A stretch of 64,000 bases of DNA from Ancylobacter radicis (lineage in GTDB: Bacteria > Pseudomonadota > Alphaproteobacteria > Rhizobiales > Xanthobacteraceae), in assembly GCF_018449475.1 (NCBI RefSeq), contig NZ_JAHCQH010000014.1:248001-312000 (forward strand), in the 5' to 3' direction. Below are positions 48,333 through 64,000 of this stretch, piece by piece (position 1 is the stretch's first letter; each line of letters opens with the position of its first letter). A program made the translations under genes and the position numbers. The notes under the pieces are model-generated. The model saw only the letters and a list, made by a program, of their open reading frames with translations, did not search any database and was not told the DNA's origin.

Positions 48333-51300
48333 TCAGAAGCGCAGACGAAGGCTGGCATTGAACCCGTTGTCAGACAGGCCGCCGCCAAACGCACCGGAAT
48401 AGGACACGGCCAGACGGGCGGCCGGCGAGAGCTCGACGGAAAGACCACCTTCGAGCACAAGCGCGTCTTCCGTCACCGGGACGCCGGTGATCGAGAACGG
48501 CGCGCTGCCCTCAAGGCTCATCGACATGGCCTGGTCCGTGTCGCCGAAGGCGTGGCGCCAGCCGGCCATGCCGGTCAGTTGGCCCAGCCGGGAGCCGAAC
48601 GGCACCTCGATGGCGGCGCGCAGGCCCAGCGTGGTGAAGGTCACCCCGGCGTCGTAGCCAGCGCCGGTCAGCGCCGCCTCCCCTCCGCTTTCCGCAAAGC
48701 TGCCGCTGGAGGCATCGACATAGGCCAGCCCGGCGAAGGGCTCCAATACCGCCGAACCGAGCGCCGTCTGGTCCAGCGTGAGGCGCCAGCCGGCTTCGGC
48801 GAAGATCTGTGCCGTGTGACCGTCATAGTCACCCTCCAGCCGTTCGGAAAAGCCGGGGAACGAGACCTGCCGCGTCGTATCGACCGACTGGTGGGTGTAG
48901 GCCGCGCCGAGCCGCACCCCGAGCGCACCGAACTGGCCGCTGCCATAGAGGCCGACGTGAAGATCATCGCTGTCGGCGGAGGCGCCCGAGGCGGTTTCGC
49001 TGCTCTGGCCGAAGCCGACGAAGCCACCCCAGCGGAACGTCTCGCCCGCCGGGCGATCCATGCCGACCAGAAAGCCGCCGATCGTGCGGTCGAAGCCGGC
49101 GGCGTTCGACGTGCCCTCGAACGTTCCCCATGATCCGTAGGCCTGTCCCCACAGGGTCGCTCCCGTCTCGCCGGCCGTCGAGGCGATGACGCCGTCCGCG
49201 CGCGCGCCCTGATCGGCCTGCTGAAGTCGCGTCAGAACGGCATCGCGCACGAAGCGGCTGTCTTCCAGGGCGGCGTTCTGGAGGCTGGGATAGAGATCGC
49301 CGGACAATTGGTTGAAGGCGATGCGCGCGTCGGAATCGGTCATTTGCGAGCCGACAGCATCGTGCAGGTAGCTCCCGGTCGGCAGGCCGTCGAGCGCCAC
49401 GGCGACGGCTATCTGGTTCGGTGTCACGGCGGCGGCGGTAAAGGCGCGGTCCTGATACACGTCGAGATACACGCCCGATCCGTCCGCCGACGCCTCCACC
49501 GCATAGAAGGCCGAGATCGAGTTGTCGCCCACCAGCGTGTAGCTCCCGGTGATTCCGCCATCGGCGGTCAGCACGGTGAAGCGCGTGCCGATGGCCGTGA
49601 CGCCGCCGAGGCCGGTAATGCTGATGAGGGCGCCATCGGCCAGCGTGGCGGTGCCCCCGACCGCGATGAGGTCGGCGGTGCCGCCGCTCACTTCCACCGC
49701 ATAGAGCGCGCCCGCCGCCTGGGTGAAATCGCCGGCGACGCTCACCGTACCCACGGAATTGCCCGGCGCGACCGTAGCACCGGACTCCAGCGCCAGCGCC
49801 CCGACGCCGCCATTGCCGGCCAGCACGGCGCCATCTTCCACCACGACCCATCCGCCCAGCGTTCCCGCCAGCGAAAGCGTGCCCGAGGCGACGGTGGTGG
49901 TGCCGGTGAAGGCCGTGCCGTCGCCGGCATAGACCAGCGTGCCGCTGCCGGTCTTGACCAGCGTGCCGCTGCCGCTGAGCCCGTTGGCGAGCGTGCCGGT
50001 CTCCGACTGGTCGATCACCAGCGCGCCCTCATTGACGATCCAGCCGCTGCCGAAGCTGGTGGCGGAGCCGATCAGCGTGCCGCCATAGATGTTGGTCCCG
50101 CCGGAATAGGTATTGAAGCCCGATAGTTCGGTGACGCCGGCATAGGCATCGACCGTCAGTTCCCCGGAAAGATCGGCCATGAACAGATAGTCGCTCGCCG
50201 TATGGTTCAGCACCAGAACGGCACTGGCGCCGGCCTGCACCGCCACCGCTCCGCTCTCCAGCATGCCCGGCGCCGTTGCCGCGTCACCCGCCGCGCTGCC
50301 GATGACGATCTCGGCGGAGATGCCGGCATTGCCCTCATCATCGACGGTACCGACGGACACCAGATCGGCCGTGAGGGTGCCGCCAGCGGACAGGGTCAAT
50401 CGGGTCGGGGTGACGCCGCCCAGCAGCAGCCCGCTGCCCGCGTCCAGCCGCGATCCGTCGCCGGTCACCTCGATCTCGGCCGTGCCGCCGAGCGCGTTGA
50501 CGAAGGAGGCCGCGACGTAACCGCCATTCGCCACCTGCAACGTGCCCTGCCCGCCTTCGCTGGCGACCGACAACTCGCCGTTCACGGTCCAGCTTGCGCC
50601 GGCACCGAACACGCTGACATAACCCTGCGAGCCCGGACCGGTGCCGACCGTGGCGGCGCCGCTGACGAGCGTGCCCCCCGCATCGACCAGCACCTCGCCC
50701 CGGCCGCCAAAGCCGACATACAACTCGTTGGCGACCACCAGCGAGGCCCCGGCGCCGATCTCGACGTCGCCGGTGCTGCCGGCCTCATAGGCCACCACGG
50801 CGACATCGGCGCTGACCGACGCGCCATCGGCGATGCCCAGATCGCCGTCGCCGCCATCGCCGACATAGAGCACGCCGTCGGCGTTCCAACTGGAGCCTGC
50901 GCCGGTGACGTAGACCACGCCGATCGTGCCGTAGAGAGAGCCGAGGACGGCATCCCCGGAGCGCACCGTGCCGCCATCGGCGATCGTCAGCGAGCCATAG
51001 CCGAGATAGCCCACCACCACCGCATCCGAGGCCGTCCAGCTCGAACCGGTCCCCGTGACCTCCACCTCGGCCGGGGTTGTGAGGTCGTAGCCGATCAGCA
51101 GGTCCGAACTCGTCGCCGTTCCGCCATCATAGACGGACACGGCGCCGGCGGTGCGGACGAACACATCGCCGCTGCTGTCCCAACGCGCGCCAGCCCCGCC
51201 GACCTCCACCAGAGCGGGGGAGAATTCATCGCCCACCACCGCATTGGCATTGGACACCACCGCGCCGTCGGCGATGACAAGGGTGCCGGTCCCGCCGCCC

Positions 51301-52316
51301 GTGGCCACCGTCAGGTCGCCGGTGATGATCCATTGCGAACCGGCGCCCAGAACGGCCGCCTGTCCGTCGCTATTGGCATCGCCGATCAGCGCGCTGGTGG
51401 AGGTGACCACGCCGCCATCGGAGACGACCAGAGAGCCATCCCCCAGCGCGCCGACAGTGATGGCCCCGCTCGCCTCCCATCGCGAGCCAGTCCCGTCGAT
51501 GGTGATGCTGCCGGTCCCAGCGCTTACGCCGTCGCCGATATTGGTCTGGCCGGAGGTCATCACCGCCCCGTCGAGCACCGAAACGGTGCCGTTGGTGCCG
51601 ATGGCGAGCGTCCCGTCCACCTGGAATGCCGAACCGGAGCCGCTGACCAGCACCGTGCCGCTGGGTGCCAGCAGGCCGGCCACCACGGTGTCGCCGGTCG
51701 TGACGACGCCGCCATCGGTGATCGTCAACTGCCCGCCGCCAAGCTGTCCGATGGCCAGCGCGCCGGCATTGACCCATTGTGATCCGGCGCCGGTGACCGT
51801 CACCGCGCCGACGGCGCTCGAACTCGCCGCGCCCAGAATCGCGCTGTCGGAGGTGAGGAGCCCGCCCTGTTCCACCGTAATGCTGCCATCGGCATTGAAC
51901 GCCAAAGTGAGGTCGCCGGAGGTGTTCCAGGCGGATCCGGCGCCGGAAATGGTCGCCGCGCCCGTCGCCCCGCTCCCCACCGTGCCGCTGCTGCCGGAGA
52001 CGGCGGCGCCGGCCAGAATGTCCAGCGTACCGGCATCGCTGTCGCCCACCACCACGGCCGCGCTGTTCGACAGGGTCGTGCCCGGATCGGTGACAATAAG
52101 CGTGCCGGCAAGGCCACCCAGACCGATAGAGGTGTTGTCGTAAGCGGGCATCGCGCCCTGGTCGATCTGTACGGTCCCGGTGACGGACAGGTCCTGCGCC
52201 GGGGCGAGCCCGGCACCGAGGCACAGCGCCGGCAGGGAGACGGTGGCCGCCAGGACGAAACGTCCGGCCGAGTGGGGCGCGCGGGCGCGGCACGCCCTCT
52301 CATTATTGGACATCAA
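48333..52316 (-). CDS. Autotransporter with T5SS-associated passenger repeats
   Basis: Type Va autotransporter of 1327 residues. After an extended leader (RFVLAATVSLPALCLGAGLAPA), residues about 45-620 hold roughly eleven repeats of about 48 residues built on GAGSxWxxxGxLxVGxxGxGxLxIxDGGxVxS, which fold as beta-helix turns. A GTLSLAGTLGG / LESGATVAPGNSVGT segment (about 835-890) is the pre-barrel region. The C-terminal 280 residues form the beta-barrel (LWGQAYGSWGTFEG to final LRLRF, ending in Phe). No protease triad or RGD is visible; adhesion or surface display is the likely role. Confidence 0.9.
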   Translation of the reverse strand: MMSNNERACRARAPHSAGRFVLAATVSLPALCLGAGLAPAQDLSVTGTVQIDQGAMPAYDNTSIGLGGLAGTLIVTDPGTTLSNSAAVVVGDSDAGTLDILAGAAVSGSSGTVGSGATGAATISGAGSAWNTSGDLTLAFNADGSITVEQGGLLTSDSAILGAASSSAVGAVTVTGAGSQWVNAGALAIGQLGGGQLTITDGGVVTTGDTVVAGLLAPSGTVLVSGSGSAFQVDGTLAIGTNGTVSVLDGAVMTSGQTNIGDGVSAGTGSITIDGTGSRWEASGAITVGALGDGSLVVSDGGVVTSTSALIGDANSDGQAAVLGAGSQWIITGDLTVATGGGTGTLVIADGAVVSNANAVVGDEFSPALVEVGGAGARWDSSGDVFVRTAGAVSVYDGGTATSSDLLIGYDLTTPAEVEVTGTGSSWTASDAVVVGYLGYGSLTIADGGTVRSGDAVLGSLYGTIGVVYVTGAGSSWNADGVLYVGDGGDGDLGIADGASVSADVAVVAYEAGSTGDVEIGAGASLVVANELYVGFGGRGEVLVDAGGTLVSGAATVGTGPGSQGYVSVFGAGASWTVNGELSVASEGGQGTLQVANGGYVAASFVNALGGTAEIEVTGDGSRLDAGSGLLLGGVTPTRLTLSAGGTLTADLVSVGTVDDEGNAGISAEIVIGSAAGDAATAPGMLESGAVAVQAGASAVLVLNHTASDYLFMADLSGELTVDAYAGVTELSGFNTYSGGTNIYGGTLIGSATSFGSGWIVNEGALVIDQSETGTLANGLSGSGTLVKTGSGTLVYAGDGTAFTGTTTVASGTLSLAGTLGGWVVVEDGAVLAGNGGVGALALESGATVAPGNSVGTVSVAGDFTQAAGALYAVEVSGGTADLIAVGGTATLADGALISITGLGGVTAIGTRFTVLTADGGITGSYTLVGDNSISAFYAVEASADGSGVYLDVYQDRAFTAAAVTPNQIAVAVALDGLPTGSYLHDAVGSQMTDSDARIAFNQLSGDLYPSLQNAALEDSRFVRDAVLTRLQQADQGARADGVIASTAGETGATLWGQAYGSWGTFEGTSNAAGFDRTIGGFLVGMDRPAGETFRWGGFVGFGQSSETASGASADSDDLHVGLYGSGQFGALGVRLGAAYTHQSVDTTRQVSFPGFSERLEGDYDGHTAQIFAEAGWRLTLDQTALGSAVLEPFAGLAYVDASSGSFAESGGEAALTGAGYDAGVTFTTLGLRAAIEVPFGSRLGQLTGMAGWRHAFGDTDQAMSMSLEGSAPFSITGVPVTEDALVLEGGLSVELSPAARLAVSYSGAFGGGLSDNGFNASLRLRF

Positions 52317-52448: not shown

Positions 52449-53435
52449 TCACGGGGTGCAGGGCACCAGCAGGCTGACCTGAAAGCGCCCGTTCGCGCTC
52501 CACGGTGGCGCCCGGTACATTTCATAGGCGGGGGCTTCCCCGAGTGCCCGCCGGTTGCGCGGCAGCCACAGGGCGCACACGCCGAAGACCGCTTCGGGAA
52601 TGAGATGGTACGGCCCGTCCACATTCAGCCGCACGAACGTGGCCTCGCGCGTCGACAGGCGGCGCAGCGGTGCCCGGAGCGGAGGGAAAGTCGTGTGCGT
52701 ATCCACCACCGTGCAGTCGTAGCGGATCTGGCCGGGCGCGGTGAAGCCGGGATCGTCATAGAGGATGCCGACAGCGGTCATCGCCTCCAGCGGCAGGCCT
52801 GCCGCCTGAAGCGCCTCGGCAAAACGCTGCCAGTGGAACGGTATCTGCGACATCGGCCCGTGAAAGCGCATGCCGATGAGCGGCAGGGCGCCCTGCCGCA
52901 CCGGCGCGGCCTGTTCGACCAGATCGACATGCAGGCGTCCGGGCTTCGGCGCCTCCGCCTGGGCTCGCGCCCGAAGACGGTTGGGCGCCATGGCGAACTG
53001 CCGGGCAAAGGCGCGCGTGAAGGCCGCCTGACTGGCATAGCCGCTGCGCAGCGAGGCCTCGATGATCGAGGTCGACGACCGGCAGATGAGAGACGCCGCA
53101 TGGGCCAGCCGGGTACGGCGCACATAGGCGCCGAAAGTCTCGCCCATGAGTTCGGCGAACCGGCGATGAAAGTGGAACGGGCTCATTCCCACCCGCTCCG
53201 CCGCCACTTCCACCGTGCGGGGAGCGGAGGTGTCGCTCTCGATCCAGTCCAGTGTGGCCAGCAGGAAGTCTGCGTCCACCTGAGTTCGGGGCGCGGTCGG
53301 CCCCATCCCGCCACGCACCCCCGGCAGGTCAAATTCCCGGCTGGCGGGCGCCCGGGTAGGGTCGAGCCTCTCGCCCATACCGATATCGTCGCGCGTCAGC
53401 AGGTCGGGGCGTTCGAGGTGAAAATCAGAGGCCAA
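52449..53435 (-). CDS. AraC-family regulator with GyrI-like effector domain
   Basis: Regulator of 328 residues. The AraC double helix-turn-helix is N-terminal (residues about 55-160: VEVAAERVGMSPFHFHRRFA, SLRSGYASQAAFTRAFARQF), and the C-terminal part is a GyrI/SOUL-like effector-binding domain (LPLIGMRFHGPMSQIPFHWQ, AVGILYDDPGFT). This Rob/SoxS-like order with GyrI domain usually senses small hydrophobic molecules. It is upstream of the autotransporter on the same strand, 132 bases away, but a link is not shown. Later Met codons at 53378 or 53306 are possible starts. Confidence 0.85.
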   Translation of the reverse strand: MASDFHLERPDLLTRDDIGMGERLDPTRAPASREFDLPGVRGGMGPTAPRTQVDADFLLATLDWIESDTSAPRTVEVAAERVGMSPFHFHRRFAELMGETFGAYVRRTRLAHAASLICRSSTSIIEASLRSGYASQAAFTRAFARQFAMAPNRLRARAQAEAPKPGRLHVDLVEQAAPVRQGALPLIGMRFHGPMSQIPFHWQRFAEALQAAGLPLEAMTAVGILYDDPGFTAPGQIRYDCTVVDTHTTFPPLRAPLRRLSTREATFVRLNVDGPYHLIPEAVFGVCALWLPRNRRALGEAPAYEMYRAPPWSANGRFQVSLLVPCTP

Positions 53436-53643: not shown

Positions 53644-54012
53644 TCAGCTCAGGATGAAGAAGACCTTGCGCACGAAGGTGAGGTTTTCCCACGTGCCCTT
53701 GAAGCCGCGCGCCACCACGAAGCTCTCTCCGGGGCCGAATTCGCGGGCATGGCCCTGCGCGTCGGTCAGGCGCACGCGGCCCTCCAGCAGATGGCACATC
53801 TCGTCATAGTCGCAGTCCACCCGCTCGCAATGGGGAGGGGCTTCCCAGATGCCGGAGAGCGCGCCCTTCTCCGCATTGGTGAAATGGCGCCGGCTCTGCG
53901 CGACGAAGGGCACATCGACCACCGCCGGATCGTCGGTGACGATGTCGCGGACAGGCACCATGTCCGGGTCGAAGGCGATGACGTTGCTGGGCGATGTCGG
54001 GCGGAGGGACAT
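53644..54012 (-). CDS. Cupin-fold protein (DUF861-like), first copy
   Basis: Small cupin of 122 residues: GALSGIWEAPPHCERVDCDY, DEMCHLLEGRVRLTDAQG and GPGESFVVARGFKGTWEN. The central W-x6-C-x3-C...DExCHxLEG pattern is also present in the two cupins at 60.3-61.0 kb, so the three are probably paralogues. The usual cupin HxH(x)3-4E metal motif is not complete. It follows the FAD oxidoreductase gene by 23 bases and is the last gene of the block. Function unknown; possible enamine/isomerase or sensor role. Confidence 0.75.
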   Translation of the reverse strand: MSLRPTSPSNVIAFDPDMVPVRDIVTDDPAVVDVPFVAQSRRHFTNAEKGALSGIWEAPPHCERVDCDYDEMCHLLEGRVRLTDAQGHAREFGPGESFVVARGFKGTWENLTFVRKVFFILS

Positions 54013-54035: not shown

Positions 54036-55424
54036 TCAGGAATCGAAGCCGACGCCCATGGCGTCGAGCAGGCGGTTGAAGCGCGAACGGCGCCCGTCCC
54101 GGTCCTCCTGCGCCAGCCCGATCTGGGCAAGGCGCACGCCGAGCCAGCGCAGCGGCTCGGGCGGGAAGGGAAAGGGGCGCGTGCGCGCCATGGCGAGGCG
54201 GGTGCGCTCGGTCTCCACGCCGTCGAGCAGGTCAAGCATGGTCAGCGCGGCGAAGCGGCTGGCCGAGACGCCCTGCCCGGTGAAGCCCATCGCATAAGCG
54301 AGCCGCCCGCCCGCCGCGAGCCCGGCGAAGAAGGTGGTGCGCGCCGAGGTGTCGATGATGCCGCCCCAGGCATGGGTGAAGTTCACACCGGCGAGCGGCG
54401 GCAGCGCGCGGGCGAAATGGGTGGCGAGCTTGTTATAGGTCTCGGCCCGGTCGAGCAGCGCAGGATCGCGCCGCGAGCCGAAATGATACACCGCGTCATA
54501 GCCGCCCCAGAGGATGCGGTTATCGGCGCTCTTGCGGATGTAGTGGAACTGGTTGCCGCTGTCGGCGAGCGAATGCCGCCCGGTCCAGCCGATGGCGGCG
54601 AGTTCGTCCGCGCTCAGCGGGCGCGTCATGATGGCATAGTCGAAGATCGGGATGACGCTCGGGCGCAGCCGGCGCAGCAGCGGCGGCGCGGCATTGGTGG
54701 CGAGCACCGCCCTGCCCGCCTTTATCACGCCGCCCGGCGTCACCAGCTCGATGCCGGTCGCGCTCTCGCGCAGCGCCGTCACCGGCGTGTCCTCATAGAG
54801 CTCAATGCCTTGAGTGAGGGCGACACGGCGCAGCTCCGCCACGGTCTTAGCCGGGTTCACCTGCGCGTAATTCGGCTCGAACAGGCCGGCGCCATAGACC
54901 GGGCTGTCGAGCTTTTCCGCCAGCGCGGCCCCGGTGAGCGGGTGGCTCTCAATGCCGAAGCGGCGGTGACTGGCGGCGAGCGCCTGCATCCCCTCGATCT
55001 GCCAGGGCGTCTCGGCCAGCATCAGCTTGCCCGGCCGCTCGAACTCGATATCGAGATCATAGCGGGCGACATCGGCGGCATAGGCGTCGAGATTCTCCCG
55101 GCCGAGGCGGATCAGCGTTTCGACCTCGCGCGGCCAGCGGCGCAGCGCATTGCCAAGGCCATGGGAGATGGACGGCGCGCAGAAGCCGCCATTACGGCCG
55201 GAGGCGGCGTTGCCGGTTCGGCCCGCTTCCACCAGCACGATGCGCGCCTGCGGGTCGCGCTCGCGCGCCTTCAGCGCGGTCCACAGCCCGGTGAAGCCGC
55301 CGCCGATGATGGCGAGATCGGCCCGTGTGTCGCTGGCGAGCGGGGGCCGCGCGGGCTCGGCGGGCAAGGTGTCGAACCAGTAGGGGCGCAACGCGGCGTG
55401 TTTGAGGGTGGGCAACAGCTCCAT
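54036..55424 (-). CDS. FAD-dependent amine oxidoreductase (PuuB/DadA-like)
   Basis: DAO-family flavoenzyme of 462 residues. The FAD dinucleotide fold is ADLAIIGGGFTGLWTALKAR, followed by GNAASGRNGGFCAPSISHGL, a signature of gamma-glutamylputrescine oxidase-like proteins. The C-terminal flavin contact is MGFTGQGVSASRFAAL. It would oxidise a primary or secondary amine to an aldehyde, which the aldehyde dehydrogenases of the block could take up. ATG 55424 shares one base with the stop of the nucleotidyltransferase gene. Confidence 0.83.
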   Translation of the reverse strand: MELLPTLKHAALRPYWFDTLPAEPARPPLASDTRADLAIIGGGFTGLWTALKARERDPQARIVLVEAGRTGNAASGRNGGFCAPSISHGLGNALRRWPREVETLIRLGRENLDAYAADVARYDLDIEFERPGKLMLAETPWQIEGMQALAASHRRFGIESHPLTGAALAEKLDSPVYGAGLFEPNYAQVNPAKTVAELRRVALTQGIELYEDTPVTALRESATGIELVTPGGVIKAGRAVLATNAAPPLLRRLRPSVIPIFDYAIMTRPLSADELAAIGWTGRHSLADSGNQFHYIRKSADNRILWGGYDAVYHFGSRRDPALLDRAETYNKLATHFARALPPLAGVNFTHAWGGIIDTSARTTFFAGLAAGGRLAYAMGFTGQGVSASRFAALTMLDLLDGVETERTRLAMARTRPFPFPPEPLRWLGVRLAQIGLAQEDRDGRRSRFNRLLDAMGVGFDS

Positions 55425-56161
55425 CACGCGACCGCCTCCGCCAGCTTCTCTTCCAGTGCCGCCAGTTCCTCGCGCGAGTTCACGCCGGTCACTTCCAGCT
55501 CGCCCGCCTCGACGGTGGCGACGCGGTAGCCGTCGGCGCGGGCAAGCGCGACGATGTCGGTGAGGTAGTACTCGCCCTTGGCATTGGCGCAGCCGACGCG
55601 GGCGAGCCACGGGAACAGCCGATCGCCGCGCACCGCCATGACGCCGGAATTGCAGAAGCCGATGGCACGCTCCGTCTCGCTGGCGTCGCTGTGCTCGACA
55701 ATGCGCAGGAGGCTGCCATCCGCCGCCGTCACCAGCCGCCCATAGGCGCGGGTATCCGTGGGGCGGAAGCCGAGCACGGCGAGCGCCACGTCACCGCTCA
55801 CCGCCGCGCAGAGCGCGCGCATGGTGTCGAGCGTGATGAGCGGCACGTCGCCATAGAGGATCAGCACGGTGCCAGAGAAACCGGCCAGCTCGCCCTCCGC
55901 CGCCTGCACCGCATGGGCAGTGCCAAGCTGCTCACGCTGGATCGCCTTGGGCAGAGCGGGAAAGGCTTCCTCGATCTGCTCGCGCCCGGCACCGACCACC
56001 AGCACGACCTTCTCAGCCGCGATCTGCGCGAGGCTGTCGAGAAGATGCGCCAGCATCGGCCGGCCTTTCAGCGGATGCAGCACCTTGTGCAAAGGCGAGC
56101 CCATGCGGCTGCCCTTGCCGGCGGCGAGCACGACCGCAGCGATGGGGGGCGTCGCGGTCAT
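55424..56161 (-). CDS. GlmU-like sugar-1-phosphate nucleotidyltransferase, stand-alone
   Basis: NTP transferase of 245 residues equal to the N-terminal half of GlmU. It has AAVVLAAGKGSRMGSPLHKV, REQLGTAHAVQAA, ILYGDVPLI, AYGRLV and EYYLTDIVALARADG, and GVNSREEL at the end. The left-handed beta-helix acetyltransferase domain of GlmU is missing, and the gene ends cleanly with its own stop, so this is a dedicated nucleotidyltransferase. A UTP and HexNAc-1-phosphate preference is inferred from GlmU motifs. ATG 56161 overlaps the preceding aldehyde dehydrogenase stop. Confidence 0.82.
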   Translation of the reverse strand: MTATPPIAAVVLAAGKGSRMGSPLHKVLHPLKGRPMLAHLLDSLAQIAAEKVVLVVGAGREQIEEAFPALPKAIQREQLGTAHAVQAAEGELAGFSGTVLILYGDVPLITLDTMRALCAAVSGDVALAVLGFRPTDTRAYGRLVTAADGSLLRIVEHSDASETERAIGFCNSGVMAVRGDRLFPWLARVGCANAKGEYYLTDIVALARADGYRVATVEAGELEVTGVNSREELAALEEKLAEAVA

Positions 56162-57645
56162 GCCGGCCCCGGCAGGTACCAGCCCCACACTTCGGACGGG
56201 TCGAAACGGGTGATCTGCTTGGTCTCGAAATAGGCGTCATAGCCCGCCCGGCCGAGTTCGCGGCCGATGCCGGAGGTCTTGAAGCCGCCCCAGGGAAGCT
56301 GGGCGAAGGTCGGCTGCGAGCAGTTCACCCAGACGATGCCAGCGCGCAGCTTGCGGGCGACGCGCTCGCAGCGGTCGAGATCATCCGACATGACGGCGGC
56401 GGCGAGGCCATAGGCGCTGTCATTGGCCAGCGCCAGCGCCTGCTCCTCCGTGTCGAACGGGTTCACGCAGACCACGGGGCCGAAGATCTCCTCCCGCCAG
56501 ATGCCGGCATCAACAGGCACGTCGGCGAAGATGGTGGGCTGGAGGAAATAGCCCTGCGCCACCCCCTCCGGCCGCTCCCCGCCGGAGACCAGCCGCGCGC
56601 CCGACGCCCTGCCGCTGGCGATGGCGGCGAGGATCTTGTCGTACTGCCCCTTGGAGACGATGGGCCCAAGCTTCACGCCCGGCGCATCGCCCGACCCGAT
56701 GGCGATGGCCTCCGCCGCCTCCTTCAACCGCGCCAGCAGGCGGGGATAGAGGCTGCGCTCGACCAGCACGCGGGAGGTCGCCGAGCACACCTCGCCCTTG
56801 TTCCAGAAGATGCCGAACAGGATCCACTCGACCGCCTTCTCGACATCGCAATCGGCGAAGACGAGGAAGGGCGACTTGCCGCCGAGCTCCAGCGCCACGG
56901 TGCGGATGCCGGAAGCCGCCGCCATCATCACCTTGCGCCCGGTCGCCACCGAGCCGGTGAAGGCCAGCTTGTCGCAGAGCGGGTGGTCGGCGAGCGGCTG
57001 GCCGGCCTCCGGGCCGGTGCCGGTGACGAGGTTGAACACGCCCGCCGGGATGCCGGCATCGTGGATGATCTCGGCCAGCGTCTCGCAGGACAGCGAGCAG
57101 AGTTCGGAGGGTTTCAGCACGATGGTGCAACCGGCTGCGAGCGCCGGCGCCACCTTCCACACCGCCATCAGCAGCGGGTAGTTCCACGGCGTGATGGCGC
57201 CGACGACGCCCAACGGCTCGCGGGTGATGCTGGCGCGGAAGCGGGCGTCGCCGACATCGACCTCCTCGTCCGCGCGGCTGTCCTCGGCCTCGGCAAGGCC
57301 GGCGTAATAGTCGAAGGTGAAGGCGGCATCGCCGACATCCCACTCGGCTTCCGGCAGCGGCTTGCCATTGTCGCGCACCTCAATGGCGGCGATCTCGGCG
57401 AGGCGCGTGCGCAGGCCCTCGGCCACTTTGCGCAGAAACGCGCCGCGCTGGGCACCGGTGAGGCCCGACCACACGCCCGCGTCAAAAGCACGGCGCGCCG
57501 CACGCACCGCGCGGTCGATATCCTCGGCCTGCCCGGCGGCGACATGGGCGAAGGGCTGTTCGCTCGCCGGGTCGATGGCCGGGAAGCTGCCGCCCGCCAC
57601 CGGAGGGGCGAAGGCTCCGTCAATGTAAAGGCGCGTTGTGTGCAT
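56158..57645 (-). CDS. Aldehyde dehydrogenase, betaine/aminobutyraldehyde type
   Basis: NAD(P)-dependent dehydrogenase of 495 residues. NAD site FTGSVATGRKVM; catalytic Glu in LELGGKSPFLVF; catalytic Cys in NKGEVCSATSRV; C-terminal WGGFKTSGIGRELG. Sequence style (LYIDGAFAPP start, WNYPLLMAVWKVAPALAAGC) is that of betaine-aldehyde or aminoaldehyde dehydrogenases. ATG 57645 is preceded by GAGGGCGAG. It would oxidise the product of the nearby FAD amine oxidase. Confidence 0.88.
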   Translation of the reverse strand: MHTTRLYIDGAFAPPVAGGSFPAIDPASEQPFAHVAAGQAEDIDRAVRAARRAFDAGVWSGLTGAQRGAFLRKVAEGLRTRLAEIAAIEVRDNGKPLPEAEWDVGDAAFTFDYYAGLAEAEDSRADEEVDVGDARFRASITREPLGVVGAITPWNYPLLMAVWKVAPALAAGCTIVLKPSELCSLSCETLAEIIHDAGIPAGVFNLVTGTGPEAGQPLADHPLCDKLAFTGSVATGRKVMMAAASGIRTVALELGGKSPFLVFADCDVEKAVEWILFGIFWNKGEVCSATSRVLVERSLYPRLLARLKEAAEAIAIGSGDAPGVKLGPIVSKGQYDKILAAIASGRASGARLVSGGERPEGVAQGYFLQPTIFADVPVDAGIWREEIFGPVVCVNPFDTEEQALALANDSAYGLAAAVMSDDLDRCERVARKLRAGIVWVNCSQPTFAQLPWGGFKTSGIGRELGRAGYDAYFETKQITRFDPSEVWGWYLPGPA

Positions 57646-57674
57646 CGGGCTCGCCCTCTTCAGACCTGCTCGTT

Positions 57675-59219
57675 TCAGACGTGTTTGCGGCCGCCGGCAC
57701 CCGACCGGTCGAGGAACCACTCGTCCGGGTAGGGATACCACCAGTCGTGAATTTGCGGCTTGTGGTCCATCACCACCATCTTGGAGCGGCGGAAGGCGTC
57801 GAGCCCCTGCCGGCCGAGTTCGCGGCCCATGCCCGAGGCCTTCCAGCCGCCGAAGGGCAGCGCGTCATTGTCGATCATCGGGTTGTTGACCCAGACCATG
57901 CCGGCTTCCAGTCGCTCGGACGCCTCGATGGCTTCTTCCAGCGACGTGGTGAAGATCGACGCGCCGAGCCCGAACGGGCTGTCGTTGGCGGCGGTGATGG
58001 CGGCGTCAAAATCCGCCACGCGGCAGACCGCGACGACCGGACCGAACGCCTCCTCGCGCAGGATCTCCATCTCCGGCGTGCAGCGGGTGAGAATGGTCGG
58101 CTCGTAGAACCAGCCGGTCTCCAGCCCCTCGGGAATGCGCCCGCCGCACTCGATTTTGGCGCCCTTGGCGACGGCGTCGGCGACGAGGCGCATCACCTTG
58201 TCCCGCGCGGCCTTTGAGACCAGCGGGCCGAGTTCGTTCTTTTCCAGCCCATTGCCGATGCGCAGGCGCCTGGTCTCGCGCACAAACGCTTCGACAAAGG
58301 CATCATGGATGGCATCGACGGCGTAGATGCGCTCGGTCGAGGTGCAGACCTGGCCGGACATGTGGAAGGCACCGGTGACGGCTCCCGCCGCCGCCACGTC
58401 GATGGGGGCCGAAGCGGCGATGATCATCGGGTCGGAGCCCCCGGCCTCGATCACCGCCGGCTTCATCTTCGCCGCCGCCGCCATGGCGACCGCGCGTCCG
58501 CCCGCCACCGATCCGGTGAAGGCAACGGCATGGGTGCGGTCACTGTCCACCAGCGCCTTGCCGACCTCCGCCCCGCCCGGCAGGCAGGCGACGAGGCCCT
58601 CCGGCAGGCCGTCGAACACCTTCATGAACTCCAGCGTGCACAGCGTGGTCGCCTCGGCCGGCTTGACGATGCAGCCATTGCCGGCGGCGAGCGAGGCCGC
58701 GACGGTCCAGCACATCAGCAGGATCGGGAAGTTGAACGGCATGATATGCACGGAGACGCCCAGCGCCTCGTAGCGCGCATATTGCGTCGAGCCGATCTGC
58801 GTCGTGCCGGCGATCTTGCCGGCGTCGTCGCGCGCCATCTCCGCGTAATAGCGGAAGATCGGCGCGACATTGGCGAGTTCGCCAATGGCCTCGGGATAGG
58901 GCTTGCCCATCTCCCGGCTCATCAGGATCGCGCTGTCGGTGAAATCCGCCGTCTCGATGCGATTGGCGAGCGCGTGCAGCGCTTTGGCGCGGCTCTTGGC
59001 GTCGGTGCGGTTCCACAGCTTCTGCGCCGCGTTGACGCGCGCCAGAACCGCCGCGATCTCCTCGCCGGTCACCTCGACGCGGCGGCCGACCTCCTCCAGC
59101 GTCGCCGGGTCGATCACCGCATGGGTGATGCCAGCGGAGGGGTGCAGGCCGGGGCTGAGATAATAGCGCGGGGCGGCGAGATCGGCGGGGGAAAGGTCGG
59201 CGGTGGAGGGATAGGCCAT
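57675..59219 (-). CDS. Aldehyde dehydrogenase, second paralogue (succinate-semialdehyde-like)
   Basis: Dehydrogenase of about 514 residues, clearly diverged from its neighbour. NAD site FTGSVAGGRAVA; catalytic Glu in VIEAGGSDPMII; catalytic Cys in SGQVCTSTERIY; C-terminal FGGWKASGMGRELGRQG. The EAGGSDP variant and the short SGQVC loop are typical of semialdehyde dehydrogenases. Start 59219 has AAGGAAC upstream; ATG 59234, overlapping the kinase stop, is the alternative. Follows the kinase, 29 bases before the other dehydrogenase. Confidence 0.85.
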   Translation of the reverse strand: MAYPSTADLSPADLAAPRYYLSPGLHPSAGITHAVIDPATLEEVGRRVEVTGEEIAAVLARVNAAQKLWNRTDAKSRAKALHALANRIETADFTDSAILMSREMGKPYPEAIGELANVAPIFRYYAEMARDDAGKIAGTTQIGSTQYARYEALGVSVHIMPFNFPILLMCWTVAASLAAGNGCIVKPAEATTLCTLEFMKVFDGLPEGLVACLPGGAEVGKALVDSDRTHAVAFTGSVAGGRAVAMAAAAKMKPAVIEAGGSDPMIIAASAPIDVAAAGAVTGAFHMSGQVCTSTERIYAVDAIHDAFVEAFVRETRRLRIGNGLEKNELGPLVSKAARDKVMRLVADAVAKGAKIECGGRIPEGLETGWFYEPTILTRCTPEMEILREEAFGPVVAVCRVADFDAAITAANDSPFGLGASIFTTSLEEAIEASERLEAGMVWVNNPMIDNDALPFGGWKASGMGRELGRQGLDAFRRSKMVVMDHKPQIHDWWYPYPDEWFLDRSGAGGRKHV

Positions 59220-59230
59220 GCGATGTTCCT

Positions 59231-60298
59231 TCATGCCGGCGCTCGGGTAGCGGCCAGCCGGGACGCCAGCGCCTCGCCGCGCGCGCGCCAGTCCGGCAGT
59301 GCTTCCGCGAGGAAATCGGCGATGGATGTGAGATTGGCGGCAGCGAGCGCCGCGTCGAGCTGACCGAGCACGCGCGGCAGCCAGGTGAGGTAATGCGCCT
59401 TGCCGTCGCGCTGGCAGAGCCGCACGAAGACGCCGACGATGCGGGCATGGCGCTGCGCGCCCATCAGGTGATAACGCGCGCGGATCGCCCGCGCCTCGGC
59501 CTCATCGCCCGCGAGCGCGCCGATGTAGCGGTCCAGCATCGCGGCTTCGAGACCGGGGGCGAGGTCGCGCCGGGCATCCTGCAGCAGCGAGACGAGGTCA
59601 TATTCGCGGGGGCCGCGCACGGCGTCCTGAAAGTCGAGCAGACCGCAGCGGGCGACGCCCTCGCGCCCGTCCAGCTCCATCAGGTTGTCGACATGGAAGT
59701 CGCGCAGCACTAGCGCCTCCTGCCGGCCATAGAGCGGGGCGAGCGCGGTGTCCCACAGCTCAAGGAAGCGGCGGGTGAAGGCGGCGCGATCCAGCTCCGG
59801 CGCCAGCGCCGGGGCGAACCAGTCGCAGAACACGGTGAGTTCGGTGAGCCAGACATCGCGATCATAAAAGGGCTGCGAGACCGCCGCCCCCTCGGGCGAT
59901 TGATGCAGATGCGCCAGCGCGTCGATGGCCAGCGCGTAAAGCTCCGCCTCCGACCGCCCGGCCCTGAGGCGGCGCGCATAGGTGGCGTCGCCCCAGTCCT
60001 CGATCAGCGCGAGGCAATGCACCGGGTCCGCCGCCTCGACGCGCGGCGCCGACAGGCCGAGCCCGTTCAGGTGCCGGGCGACGCGGATATAGGAGGCGAA
60101 GCCCTCCGGGTCGGTGCGGTCCTCCATCAGCAGCAGCCCGGCCTGCGGCAGCCGGTAGTAGCGGCGCGCCGAAGCATCGCCCGGCAGCGCCATGAGCGGC
60201 ACGCCGGCCTGACCATGGCGGGCCAGAAAGGTCACGCCGGGGGGATCGAGCCGCACGGCCGGGCCGGACGTTGTGCTGAGGGGGACGGCCACGCTCAT
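59231..60298 (-). CDS. AmgK-like sugar kinase (APH fold)
   Basis: Aminoglycoside-phosphotransferase-fold kinase of 355 residues. GDASARRYYRL near residue 40 is the AmgK-type nucleotide segment, LVLRDFHVDNLMELDG the catalytic Brenner-type loop (Asp in RDFHVDN) and CGLLDFQDAVRGPREYDLVS the metal-binding DFQD motif. AmgK phosphorylates the anomeric hydroxyl of MurNAc or GlcNAc and normally sits beside murU. Here a GlmU-like nucleotidyltransferase is in the same block. Substrate is inferred from AmgK resemblance; other APH-fold roles such as choline kinase cannot be ruled out. Confidence 0.75.
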   Translation of the reverse strand: MSVAVPLSTTSGPAVRLDPPGVTFLARHGQAGVPLMALPGDASARRYYRLPQAGLLLMEDRTDPEGFASYIRVARHLNGLGLSAPRVEAADPVHCLALIEDWGDATYARRLRAGRSEAELYALAIDALAHLHQSPEGAAVSQPFYDRDVWLTELTVFCDWFAPALAPELDRAAFTRRFLELWDTALAPLYGRQEALVLRDFHVDNLMELDGREGVARCGLLDFQDAVRGPREYDLVSLLQDARRDLAPGLEAAMLDRYIGALAGDEAEARAIRARYHLMGAQRHARIVGVFVRLCQRDGKAHYLTWLPRVLGQLDAALAAANLTSIADFLAEALPDWRARGEALASRLAATRAPA

Positions 60299-60651
60299 CG
60301 GATCATGTAGACCTTCTTGATGGTCTCATGGACCGTGCAGACGCCCTTCCAGTCCTTCGGGAAAAAGGCGGCGGTGTCCGGGGTGATCTCGATCACCTCA
60401 CCGCTCTCATGCACATAGGTGCAGCGCCCTTCCAGGAAGTGACAGAACTCGTCGGAGGTGACGTGGCATTCCCACTTGCCCGGCGTGCAGATCCACAGGC
60501 CGCATTCGGACTGGCCGTTCGGGCCCTTGTGGATCACCTGACCGGAGACGTGGGACTGGCCCTCGATCATGGTGGGAATGATGCCCCAGTCCACCACGTC
60601 GGTGACGGAAAGCGGCTTCTTCATCAGGGGGGTAGCGGTCATTCGTTTCAC
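60295..60651 (-). CDS. Cupin-fold protein, second copy
   Basis: Cupin of 118 residues: DVVDWGIIPTMIEGQSHVSG, SECGLWICTPGKWECHVTSD, DEFCHFLEGRCTYVHESG and FFPKDWKGVCTV. It is very close in layout to the cupin immediately upstream (WICTPG/WVCTPG; DEFCHF in both), showing a tandem duplication. Starts: GTG 60651 next to the preceding stop, or ATG 60642. It overlaps the kinase by four bases. No function assigned. Confidence 0.78.
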   Translation of the reverse strand: MKRMTATPLMKKPLSVTDVVDWGIIPTMIEGQSHVSGQVIHKGPNGQSECGLWICTPGKWECHVTSDEFCHFLEGRCTYVHESGEVIEITPDTAAFFPKDWKGVCTVHETIKKVYMIR

Positions 60652-61020
60652 TCACGCCAGCATGTAGATGTTGCGGATGGTTTCGATCACCTCGGCCTCG
60701 CCCTCATAGCCGCCGGGGAAGACGACGCAGGTGCCCGCCTCGACCTCGGTGACCTCGCCGGTGACGGCGGTGTAGCGCGCGCGGCCCGACACGAAGTGGC
60801 AGAACTCGTCGCGCGGCACGGAGATTTTCCAGCGGCCGGGGGTGCAGACCCAGATGCCGGTCTCCGGCGAGTTGCCCGGCCCCTTGAACAGCAGGCGGCC
60901 GGTGGAGTGCGAGGCGCCCTCGATGGAATCGGGCTGCGCGCCCCAGTCCACGAGGTCGTCATAGGTCGTGGCGCCGTGGATGTGCGGCGCGGAGCTTTTC
61001 AGGTCGGTCATGGCGATCAC
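60652..61020 (-). CDS. Cupin-fold protein, third copy
   Basis: Cupin of 122 residues with DDLVDWGAQPDSIEGASHST, ETGIWVCTPGRWKISVPRDE, EFCHFVSGRARYTAVTGE and VVFPGGYEGEAEVIETIR. Paralogue of the gene that follows. The GTG start overlaps the glycosyltransferase stop (GTGA); ATG 61011 is possible. Cupins of this group may detoxify reactive intermediates or bind the pathway product; this is inference only. Confidence 0.78.
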   Translation of the reverse strand: MIAMTDLKSSAPHIHGATTYDDLVDWGAQPDSIEGASHSTGRLLFKGPGNSPETGIWVCTPGRWKISVPRDEFCHFVSGRARYTAVTGEVTEVEAGTCVVFPGGYEGEAEVIETIRNIYMLA

Positions 61021-62291
61021 ACCAGCGCGGTGAGCAGGCGCGCGGCCTTCTTCGGGCCCTCGCAGCTCTGCATATGGGCGGAAGTGGTGGCGAGCTTGGC
61101 CTTGATGGCCGGATCGGTGAGGCAGGCCTCGATCTTGGCGATCAGCTCCGCGTCGGTCCAGTCATAGCGCTCGGAGCGGAAGCCGTGGCCGGTCTCCTCG
61201 ACGCGCATGGCGTTGTCATGGCCGTCCCAGACATAGGGCATGATGATCGCCGGCTTGCCGAAATAGAGGCACTCGGTGAACGAGTTGTTGCCGCCGTGAT
61301 GGATGACGGCATCGACCTGCGGGATCACCGAGGGCTGCGGGAACCAGCTCGCCAGCGCCACATTCTCCGGCACGTCCGTGTAGCTCGCCATGTAGTCGCC
61401 GACATTGACTAGCGCGCGGTAGCGGGACTTGCCGACCAGCGCGATCAGGCGCTTCAGCAGCTCGGTGTCGCCCGAACCGAGCGAGCCGAAGGAGATGTAG
61501 AGCAGCGGGCCGTCATTATTCCTGGCGAAGGTCGGCACCGTGTAGGGCTCGTCCTTGCGCACGCAGCCTTCCAGATACTGGAAGCGCGCCGGGTCGAGCG
61601 GCACCGCCCGCTTGTACTTGGCCTGCTCGGGATAGAGCAGCAGGTTGAGATAGGGCGAGGCCTCGAAGAACTGGCCGAGCGGATAGGCCGCCTCCCCATT
61701 CTCGGCGAGGAAGGCGTTGAACTGGTCGTGGATCGGCTTGATGACCTCGTTGAACTTCGCCCGGAAGGCGGCGTGGCCTTCATGGTCGTTCTCGCCCATG
61801 CCGGAAAGATGCGGCGGGATCGCCTCGTCCTCGATCTCGTTTTCCGAGCAGGAGATAATGCGCACCCACGGCACGCCGGACTGCTTGATGGCCGGGAACA
61901 GGATGACGTTGTCGACCGCGATCACATCCGGCTTGATGCGCGCGAGCACGCCCGGCAGATCCTTCTGCGCCCATGTGGCGCTGGAGACGATGGCCTCCCA
62001 GCACTCCCGCACATAATTGTCGAGCTGGTCGATCGGCTTCTTCGAGAAGTTCGGGATATGGCCGTTGATGAAGTCCTCCCAGAACTTCGCCATCTGCTCG
62101 GGCGGCATGGGCTCGGAGAGCGCGACGGGGTGAGCCTCGAAGCCATAGCCCTCATAGACCGACACGAAGCCGGGATCGGACAGGAACACCGCCTTGTGGC
62201 CGAGCGCCGTGACCGCCTGGGCGATGCCGACGGAGTTGAGGGCCGGACCGAAGGCCGCTTCGGGGAAGAAGGCGAAGGTCTTCTGTTCCAT
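61017..62291 (-). CDS. Family-1 glycosyltransferase (GT-B fold)
   Basis: UDP-glycosyltransferase-like protein of 424 residues. The N-terminal acceptor domain starts KTFAFFPEAAFGPALNSVG. The C-terminal donor domain has LLYISFGSLGSGD, SWFPQPSVIPQVDAVIHHGG, and HHGGNNSFTECLYFGKPAII with PYVWDGHDNAMRVEE, the nucleotide-sugar-binding motif of MGT/UGT enzymes. No signal peptide. It glycosylates a small acceptor in the family norm; the acceptor here is unknown. GAGAGG precedes the ATG. It overlaps the next gene, a cupin. Confidence 0.88.
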   Translation of the reverse strand: MEQKTFAFFPEAAFGPALNSVGIAQAVTALGHKAVFLSDPGFVSVYEGYGFEAHPVALSEPMPPEQMAKFWEDFINGHIPNFSKKPIDQLDNYVRECWEAIVSSATWAQKDLPGVLARIKPDVIAVDNVILFPAIKQSGVPWVRIISCSENEIEDEAIPPHLSGMGENDHEGHAAFRAKFNEVIKPIHDQFNAFLAENGEAAYPLGQFFEASPYLNLLLYPEQAKYKRAVPLDPARFQYLEGCVRKDEPYTVPTFARNNDGPLLYISFGSLGSGDTELLKRLIALVGKSRYRALVNVGDYMASYTDVPENVALASWFPQPSVIPQVDAVIHHGGNNSFTECLYFGKPAIIMPYVWDGHDNAMRVEETGHGFRSERYDWTDAELIAKIEACLTDPAIKAKLATTSAHMQSCEGPKKAARLLTALV

Positions 62292-62353: not shown

Positions 62354-63409
62354 TCAGGCGGCGAAGATGCGGGTGTCGGCACGGCTCCAGCCGAGGCTGA
62401 GCACATCGCCGGTTCGGAAGCTGCGGGCCTCGGCCGCGTCCGCCGTCACCCGGCAGATCAGCGGCTTCGGCATGGCCGGCGTCTCGATATGCACCTGCAG
62501 ATCGAGGCCGTGATAGGCGGTGGCGAGGATGCGGCCGGAGAGCCGGTTCTCGCAGGCATGGGCATCGAGCCGCAGCCGCTCGGGCCGTACGGCGGCGACG
62601 AGATCGCCGCCCATCCCGTCGGGAATGTCGGCGCGGATCAGGCTGCCCTCCGCCGCTGTGAGTTTGGCCCCGTCGCGCGCGACCGGGATGACGTTCATCA
62701 CCCCGATGAACTCGGCGGCGAAGCGGTTGGCCGGGTGCTCATAGACCTCGCGCGGCGGGGCGCATTGCAGCAGTTCGCCATGCTGGAGGATGGCGATGCG
62801 GTCGGCCATCACCAGCGCCTCCTCCTGATCATGGGTGACGATGATGAAGGTGATGCCGAACTGGTGCTGGATACGCTTCAGCTCCAGCTGCATCTCGCCG
62901 CGCAGCTTCTTGTCGAGCGCCCCGAGCGGTTCGTCGAGCAGCAGGAGCTGCGGGCGCTTCACCAGCGCGCGGGCAAGCGCGACGCGCTGGCGCTGGCCGC
63001 CGGAAAGCTGCTCGGGCTTGCGGCTCGCCAGCGCCGAGAGCTGGATGGTGGCGAGGATCTCGTCCACGCGCTGACGGATCTCCGTGCGCGGCAGCTTCTC
63101 CATCTCCAGCCCATAGGCGATGTTCTGCGCCACGCTCATATGCGGGAACAGCGCATAGGACTGGAACATCAGGTTCACCGGCCGGTGGTTCGGCGGCACG
63201 TGGGAGATGTCCTTGCCGTTCAGCAGGATCTGCCCGCCGCTCAGCGCCTCGAAGCCGGCGAGCATGCGCAGCAGCGTGGTCTTGCCGCTGCCGGAGGCGC
63301 CGAGCAGGGCGAAGAACTCATTCTGGCGGATGTCGAGCGACACGCCATTGACGGCCCGCACATGGCCGAAGTGCTTCTCGACATGACGAAGGGAAAGCAA
63401 GGTGGTCAT
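62354..63409 (-). CDS. PotA-like ABC transporter ATPase
   Basis: Importer ATPase of 351 residues with Walker A LGASGSGKTT, Q-loop FQSYALFPHMSV, signature LSGGQRQRVALARAL, Walker B LLLLDEPLGALD and IVTHDQEEAL, plus a C-terminal TOBE domain. This is the PotA/PotG layout for spermidine/putrescine-type importers. It overlaps the permease gene by four bases and is 62 bases before the glycosyltransferase, on the same strand. Confidence 0.88.
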   Translation of the reverse strand: MTTLLSLRHVEKHFGHVRAVNGVSLDIRQNEFFALLGASGSGKTTLLRMLAGFEALSGGQILLNGKDISHVPPNHRPVNLMFQSYALFPHMSVAQNIAYGLEMEKLPRTEIRQRVDEILATIQLSALASRKPEQLSGGQRQRVALARALVKRPQLLLLDEPLGALDKKLRGEMQLELKRIQHQFGITFIIVTHDQEEALVMADRIAILQHGELLQCAPPREVYEHPANRFAAEFIGVMNVIPVARDGAKLTAAEGSLIRADIPDGMGGDLVAAVRPERLRLDAHACENRLSGRILATAYHGLDLQVHIETPAMPKPLICRVTADAAEARSFRTGDVLSLGWSRADTRIFAA

Positions 63410-64000
63410 TGGCCCGGCAGGCCTCCGCGGTTAAGGCGCTGCGACAAAGCGAGGGTGACCAGCGAAAAGCCGATCACCAGCGTCGCCAGCACATTGATCT
63501 CGGGCGTCACGCCGAAGCGGATCATGCCGTAGATCTGCATCGGCAGGGTGATCGAGGCGCGCTGGGCCCCGGCCGTGAAGAAGGCGATGATGAATTCGTC
63601 GACTGACAGGGTGAAGGCCAGCAGCCCACCGGCGATGATCGCCGGCGCCAGCACCGGCAGCACCACGCGGCGCAGCGTCGTCAGTGTCGAGGCACCAAGA
63701 TCGGTGGAAGCCTCGACGATCGACCAGTCGAAGGATTTCAGCCGCGCCCGCACGACGGCGCAGACATAGGCGAGGTTGAACACCACATGCGCCATGATCA
63801 CCGTGTGCAGGCCGAGACGCACGTCGAGCAGCGAGAAGAAGCTCAGTAGCGCGATCGCCAGCACGATGTCGGGAATGACCATCGGGGCGAAAATCAGCGT
63901 CTCCAAGACGGAGCCCTTGCGGCGCCGGATCTCCACGCCGATGGCGAGCAGCGTGCCGAGCACGGTCGAGATGGCGGCCGAGACCAGCCCGACGATCAGC
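63406..64000 (-). CDS. PotC/PotI-like ABC permease, partial at window end
   Basis: Type I importer permease whose N-terminal part lies beyond the right edge; about 198 C-terminal residues are visible. Segments include VIPDIVLAIALLSFFSLLDV and the EAA loop EASTDLGASTLTTLRRVVLP that contacts the ATPase. The frame stays open through position 64000, so the gene continues. A second permease and a solute-binding protein are expected outside the window. Confidence 0.88.
   Translation of the reverse strand, partial: LIVGLVSAAISTVLGTLLAIGVEIRRRKGSVLETLIFAPMVIPDIVLAIALLSFFSLLDVRLGLHTVIMAHVVFNLAYVCAVVRARLKSFDWSIVEASTDLGASTLTTLRRVVLPVLAPAIIAGGLLAFTLSVDEFIIAFFTAGAQRASITLPMQIYGMIRFGVTPEINVLATLVIGFSLVTLALSQRLNRGGLPGQ

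Follow-up and report, generated by a model that had tools for sequence, protein, structure and literature searches.

In the present study, we analysed a stretch of 64,000 nucleotides from Ancylobacter radicis (assembly GCF_018449475.1, contig NZ_JAHCQH010000014.1, positions 248,001 to 312,000), called the window throughout, and in it an operon that carries an AmgK-like sugar kinase and a shortened GlmU-type nucleotidyltransferase. It is suggested that these two enzymes form the sugar-recycling arm of an operon for glycosylation-dependent amine catabolism, a reading to which we give slightly less than an even chance. The original prediction had seen the pair as recruited for a dedicated nucleoside diphosphate (NDP)-amino-sugar. 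It missed the likely user of the sugar, a glycosyltransferase of the GT1 family (hereafter GT), together with the cupins, the oxidase and the importer encoded around it. In the cycle that we propose, a Pot-type ATP-binding cassette (ABC) importer would take up an amine, and the GT, which lacks the catalytic His, would move a sugar, most likely N-acetylglucosamine (GlcNAc) from uridine diphosphate (UDP)-GlcNAc, onto the amine nitrogen. A PuuB-like flavin oxidase and the aldehyde dehydrogenases (ALDH1 and ALDH2) would then convert the conjugated amine into an acid, and the N-glycoside may be hydrolysed spontaneously or by a DUF861 cupin, freeing the sugar. The kinase would convert the sugar to its 1-phosphate, from which the GlmU-type enzyme or the housekeeping GlmU would remake the UDP-sugar. 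The sugar would be a reusable handle, as glutamate is in the chemistry of the Puu putrescine pathway. Of this picture, the analysis establishes the genes present and their families, the distinctness of the pair from the housekeeping copies, the loss of the His, a gene fusion and the occurrence of the core beside unrelated enzymes of sugar-salvage type in two haloarchaea; the donor, the acceptor, the sequence of the reactions and the release of the sugar are inferred.

The kinase (355 amino acids, aa; Pfam APH, 5.2e-21) had been described as carrying AmgK motifs, and two AmgK models are the only curated NCBIfam families that it matches. Its score against the AmgK model NF045698 is 212.9 bits at a cut-off of 500, and the MurU-linked AmgK of the same genome scores just 266-268 bits. 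This second AmgK lies on another contig of the 4.2 Mb assembly (C7:561863-562888), and the next gene has MurU as its best curated match (284 bits, cut-off 370). A full-length GlmU is encoded at C6:226909, on the same contig as the window. We also searched for second copies in 20 other operon genomes, hand-picked among the 53 GT-bearing loci described below; a second AmgK-like gene was found in 19 of them and MurU adjoins it in all 19, and no MurU lies within the operon locus in any of the 53. In a tree of 64 kinases, the operon kinases are separate from the MurU-adjacent ones (100/99), and the operon side includes some kinases without an adjoining operon. A quick kinase tree, from which five long-branch rows were dropped, has a single branch that divides 24 operon from 26 MurU-adjacent rows (SH-aLRT 99); in both trees the stop sign held by rows L026 and L068 was treated as a gap. 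These results uphold the view that both genes are additional copies, distinct from the housekeeping ones, within an accessory operon, and the reading of them as only copies or as housekeeping genes is ruled out by the second AmgK beside MurU, the full GlmU and the kinase tree. The housekeeping AmgK itself is found within a 616-aa frame (L008 6600-8450, minus strand). The N-terminal part of this frame scores 95.1 bits against the TsaE model TIGR00150, above its cut-off of 60.1, and by this reading of the frame the protein is a TsaE-AmgK fusion.

The nucleotidyltransferase ends at 245 aa and, as predicted, is a GlmU-like protein without the acetyltransferase half. The eleven NCBIfam models that it matches best are all for GlmU. 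Of their roughly 430-490 positions, the uridylyltransferase half alone is matched, to about position 250, the C-terminal acetyltransferase (left-handed beta-helix) being absent. All 17 of the PDB matches listed for it are GlmU entries, and its identity to the GlmU of operon genomes is up to 52%. In a 52-row tree it joins the GlmU proteins and is separated from each of the 20 MurU rows (100/100 branches), and the eight motif blocks compared, whose roles are presumed from general knowledge, are GlmU-like, with the MurU motifs absent. The tree and the motifs rule out a MurU identity, and the idea of a MurU-type partner for the kinase had to be given up. A second GlmU-type gene was found in 12 of the 20 operon genomes, and in the remaining 8 GlmU was the sole match. 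The product would more likely be ordinary UDP-GlcNAc than an exotic NDP-amino-sugar, because the GlmU motifs are kept and the housekeeping GlmU could substitute where the nucleotidyltransferase gene is missing; on the same grounds, the special NDP-amino-sugar of the original prediction is disfavoured.

The operon nucleotidyltransferases are 243-251 aa long in 9 rows from Alphaproteobacteria and Halomonadaceae (100/99), and in Pseudomonas they are either longer (312-318 aa, three rows, that of L163 with a C-terminus resembling an acetyltransferase remnant by eye) or fused. The fused form is present in 8 of the 28 nucleotidyltransferase-bearing loci, all of them from Pseudomonas (L053, L054, L055, L058, L059, L062, L063 and L067), as one open frame of 740-761 codons with the nucleotidyltransferase first and ALDH1 behind it. 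Because of this fusion, it is suggested that the nucleotidyltransferase and ALDH1 act in one process, by which sugar activation would be tied to aldehyde oxidation. The differing forms would suggest that the two groups of operon nucleotidyltransferases arose independently, but a common origin was not rejected by the topology test (p-AU, approximately unbiased test, 0.0547).

Related loci were collected by means of the kinase, as the best 80 of 336, a choice that allows no conclusion on whether the GT depends on the kinase. The GT is present in 53 of the 80, and cupB and ALDH2 are present in all of these 53, so that a chance association is excluded. The same 53 loci, some of whose contigs end early, also have cupC (50), PotB/C/A (49), PotD, a second glycosyltransferase (GT2) and a GntR-type regulator (47 each), and the oxidase (38), ALDH1 (34), the nucleotidyltransferase (28) and cupA (16) are less constant. 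With two Ancylobacter loci excluded, the median identity to the window proteins is 82.6% for cupB, the most conserved among 14 operon proteins compared, 68.6% for ALDH2, 68.2% for the GT and 50.3% for the kinase. On these counts and identities, the GT, cupB and ALDH2 are taken as the core, and we take the kinase and the nucleotidyltransferase to serve it. The operon is carried by hosts that include Ancylobacter, Halomonas, Roseobacter-group bacteria and Pseudomonas, and the GT is an accessory trait, found in 13 of 385 genomes of the class (E up to 1e-60), a count that includes the genome of the window. Three loci (L068, L072 and L078) are a marine variant without the Pot importer, in which the GT, kinase, ALDH2 and cupins are joined by PhyH-like (phytanoyl-CoA-dioxygenase-like), amine-oxidase-like, small CxxCH and MFS-like proteins, the partners being named by eye. 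At L112 and L113, GT pairs lie near trimethylamine-dehydrogenase-like genes, also named by eye, and this context suggests that the GT-cupin core serves several amine pathways.

A tblastn search of the GT against plasmids gave 15 records, two of them haloarchaeal. In both haloarchaeal plasmids (2/2), the genes that come after GT-cupin-ALDH encode a ROK-family kinase and a phosphohexomutase, and their presence beside the core is independent evidence for sugar recycling. In Natrialba, where the families were scanned, the best models of this kinase and mutase are glucokinase and archaeal GlmM, both below cut-off. By these families, the haloarchaeal genes are predicted to form a non-homologous route, next to the same core, by which free sugar would become sugar-1-phosphate; glucose and GlcNAc are both possible as this sugar. 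The neighbours in Natrialba are glutamine-synthetase-like, two FAD oxidoreductase and amidotransferase genes, and in Natronorubrum an aminotransferase and a spermidine/putrescine-type transporter; in rhizobial GT loci, a saccharopine-dehydrogenase-like protein is found as the redox enzyme. A wider claim would be that a recyclable sugar carrier operates in bacteria and archaea, in which an amine is N-glycosylated by a His-less GT1 enzyme, the conjugate oxidised, the sugar recovered and the UDP-sugar remade by independently recruited enzymes, namely an AmgK-type kinase with a truncated GlmU (in some cases fused to the dehydrogenase) in bacteria and a ROK kinase with a phosphohexomutase in haloarchaea. 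We hold this claim to be possible and, on balance, rather doubtful.

By Pfam and structure matches, the GT has a GT-B fold and a UDP-sugar-binding C-terminal domain. The nearest solved structures are the spider-mite UDP-glycosyltransferases (UGTs) UGT203A2 (28% identity, Z 47.6) and UGT202A2 (22-24%, Z 41.5-43.2), but these are animal enzymes, and UGT203A2 keeps the His of the FGH motif, with which a Pro of the GT is aligned. Among 120 aligned glycosyltransferase rows, Pro occupies this position in 71, Ala in 45 and Ser in 2, and 2 rows lack it, which means that the His is lost in 118 of 118 readable rows; in GT2 it is Ala or Ser in all 47 aligned rows. Of the 18 readable GT-like rows in this count, 4 are repeats, from two genomes that also appear under different locus ids; the L050 GT, which has an in-frame stop, was read with that stop (this row was dropped from the structure alignment), and the L068 GT and the short L025 GT2 were excluded. 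Plasmid copies of the GT from rhizobia, Ruegeria and haloarchaea also have no His (8/8). Asp127 and Glu11 are invariant in a 35-row alignment; we take Asp127 to be the dyad Asp, and the His and Asp positions are assigned from the UGT203A2 alignment and from what we presume of the motif. The two His-less enzymes, GT and GT2, are retained together in 47 of the 53 GT-bearing loci. Spider-mite UGTs are held to be of bacterial origin, and this GT subfamily could be near their bacterial donor. Plant GT1 enzymes with Cys in place of the His favour N- over O-glycosylation, and the authors of that work suggested that proximity may be enough (PMC12246196). The loss of the His in the operon GT is compatible with an amine acceptor.

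The importer and the redox enzymes also give clues to the substrate. The PotD-like protein matches solved polyamine-binding proteins. Of the residues of E. coli PotD, whose roles we presume, all 48 rows compared retain Trp229, Trp255, Asp257 and Tyr293, and 47 retain Trp34, but in every one of the 48 Asp168 is replaced by Thr and Glu171 by Trp. Over most of their length, the oxidase is 28% identical to E. coli PuuB and ALDH1 is 42% identical to PuuC. As a candidate function for the oxidase, aminophosphonate oxidoreductase was rejected (TIGR03329, 239.9 bits, cut-off 632.8 not reached). Judged by these residues and families, the substrate is likely to be an amine and probably not spermidine. 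For cupB, an AlphaFold2 (AF2) model was used (pLDDT 86.1), and its Foldseek matches include PpnP (TM 0.50-0.56 by query length), the nearest being a DUF861 protein without known function and EutQ. PpnP proteins are nucleoside phosphorylases, and a cupin that would act as the sugar-releasing enzyme is only a lead from this model.

The operon resembles several known systems in part. In the AmgK-MurU peptidoglycan recycling of Pseudomonas and Caulobacter, an AmgK-family anomeric sugar kinase is likewise followed by uridylylation, but the operon kinase groups apart, its partner is GlmU-type and the canonical pair is elsewhere in the genome. The uridylyltransferase domain of GlmU has its motifs in common with the operon nucleotidyltransferase, whereas the latter is without the acetyltransferase half, forms its own clade, stands in a catabolic-looking operon and is fused to ALDH1 in the eight Pseudomonas loci. 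The Puu (gamma-glutamyl) putrescine pathway has a similar cluster of importer, conjugating enzyme, PuuB-like oxidase and PuuC-like dehydrogenase, but the operon has a glycosyltransferase instead of the glutamate ligase PuuA, and in addition the sugar kinase and the nucleotidyltransferase. No PuuA- or PuuD-type domain was found among the ten window proteins scanned, the scan being confined to these and the rest of the genome not searched for them. In nicotine biosynthesis, a transient N-glucosylation like that of the proposed cycle is later removed by a dedicated glucosidase; that system is a plant and biosynthetic one, and sugar-recycling genes are unmentioned in the portion of the source available (PMC13184244). 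Among the literature matches listed, we found no description of the operon, which is a limit of those searches and no proof of absence.

The genes form one compact minus-strand operon, which runs from about 53644 past the window end (Table 1) and of which the original prediction, at 55424-60298, had covered a part. Start and stop codons overlap repeatedly, for the ATG of the nucleotidyltransferase, at 56161, shares bases with the stop codon of ALDH1, the gene ahead of it (56161-56158), and its TGA ends at 55424, where it overlaps the oxidase. The window open reading frames (ORFs) and profile matches bear out that the GlmU-like protein and the kinase flank the two aldehyde dehydrogenases; this split holds here but is no fixed feature, as many Pseudomonas loci place the nucleotidyltransferase between both dehydrogenases. 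Divergent from the operon and beyond the window are the GntR-type regulator (named by eye, and so annotated in L215 and L216) and GT2, which is of the GT1 family (L006 15326-16609, plus strand). Past GT2, at L006 17000-19256, there are DeoC-like, DeoR-like and sugar-binding-protein-like genes, named by eye, which have no match in the related loci and were excluded from the operon. On its other side, the operon is adjoined by a large autotransporter (window 48333-52316, minus strand; Pfam beta-domain, 9.4e-60).

Table 1. Features of the operon and its possible regulator, with positions in the window unless locus L006 is given
Feature	Position	Strand	Basis
AraC regulator with GyrI-like domain, possibly associated	52449..53435	-	Pfam; no match in 80 related loci
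cupA, third DUF861/Cupin_3	53644..54012	-	Pfam
FAD-dependent oxidase, DAO family	54036..55424	-	Pfam, alignment to PuuB
GlmU-type N-acetylglucosamine-1-phosphate uridylyltransferase without acetyltransferase half	55424..56161	-	NCBIfam, tree, PDB matches
Aldehyde dehydrogenase ALDH1	56158..57645	-	profile matches; internal ATG picked as start by inspection
Aldehyde dehydrogenase ALDH2	57675..59219	-	profile matches
AmgK-like sugar-1-kinase	59231..60298	-	Pfam, NCBIfam, tree
cupB, DUF861/Cupin_3	60295..60651	-	Pfam
cupC, DUF861/Cupin_3	60652..61020	-	Pfam
GT1 glycosyltransferase (GT), MGT/UGT type, Pro at catalytic His position	61017..62291	-	Pfam/NCBIfam, structure matches
PotA-like Pot-type ABC ATPase	62354..63409	-	ORF
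PotC-like Pot-type ABC permease	63406..64000 (window end cuts gene)	-	ORF list; complete in L006 11407-12240
PotB-like and PotD-like genes	L006 12191-13057 and 13159-14277, beyond window		ORF list

Other explanations of the pair were weighed against the sugar-recycling role. The biosynthetic one, in which the pair makes a dedicated unusual NDP-amino-sugar and the GT attaches it to a product of the operon, agrees with the natural-product glycosylation known for GT relatives in the libraries and with the non-housekeeping nature of both enzymes. We consider it unlikely, as no dehydratase, aminotransferase or epimerase was found among the ten window proteins scanned, the importer, oxidase and dehydrogenases indicate catabolism, the GlmU motifs are intact, and in 25 of the 53 GT-bearing loci no nucleotidyltransferase was detected. 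An additional pathway for scavenging amino sugars is another idea, by which an imported GlcNAc conjugate would feed UDP-GlcNAc and the GT would have another role. An imported conjugate would need no GT, and AmgK acts on N-acetylmuramic acid (MurNAc) as well as GlcNAc in Pseudomonas (PMC5371407). However, conservation is higher for the GT (median identity 68.2%) than for the kinase (50.3%), the GT occurs without the kinase, and the binding protein resembles those for polyamines; such scavenging seems decidedly improbable to us.

LicA and LicC act on choline, and the APH fold includes choline kinases; by analogy, the kinase and the nucleotidyltransferase might use a non-sugar alcohol or amino-alcohol, with the GT in a separate function. 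The identity of the substrate amine leaves room for this, but the two AmgK models are the only curated NCBIfam matches of the kinase, the nucleotidyltransferase is nearest to GlmU with its motifs intact, and the haloarchaeal core adjoins a ROK kinase and a phosphohexomutase, which makes an amino-alcohol pathway a poor prospect. A defence module, with a GT that inactivates an antibiotic or a toxic amine and a kinase that serves as a phosphotransferase of the resistance type, is the explanation that we find most improbable. The kinase is AmgK-like, a nucleotidyltransferase would be left without a role, and the importer, oxidase and dehydrogenases appear catabolic, even though the GT matches include macrolide-inactivating models (below cut-off), the spider-mite relative UGT202A2 was solved with plant flavonoids and the kinase belongs to the APH superfamily.

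Several observations also weigh against the sugar-recycling role that we prefer. The kinase is outside the minimal core, and sets seeded with the GT show it often without the kinase: in 12 of the 12 other genomes of the class with the GT, the sole kinase match lies away from it, these genomes carrying one AmgK each, 11 beside MurU, and five GT-bearing plasmid loci have no match to the kinase or the nucleotidyltransferase. A kinase match is nothing unusual in the class, being present in 277 of 385 genomes, and its presence in 13 of 13 GT holders gives a Fisher p of 0.023, uncorrected for kinship. The topology test (p-AU 0.0547) does not establish a separate origin of the operon nucleotidyltransferases. 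At 15 of the 53 GT-bearing loci, some with contigs that end early, no oxidase was found nearby, and other redox enzymes are present in some variants. The PotD-like protein has lost the two acidic residues Asp168 and Glu171 of PotD, and the conserved gene set contains no recognisable glycosidase. In the plant work, Ala mutants of the dyad had lower N-glycosylation than the wild type (PMC12246196), and therefore the His loss alone is no proof of N-transfer.

If the sugar-recycling role is true, amines would be activated or protected for breakdown by conjugation to a sugar that can be used again, a counterpart of glutamylation. It would also explain the retention of a second AmgK-type kinase, and it would give a role to the His-less GT1 subfamily and to the DUF861 cupins. 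The haloarchaeal version and the Pseudomonas fusion make the recycling idea directly testable. A proven sugar-carrier cycle would be a new principle in catabolism; otherwise, the operon would represent a variant of conjugation-dependent amine catabolism.

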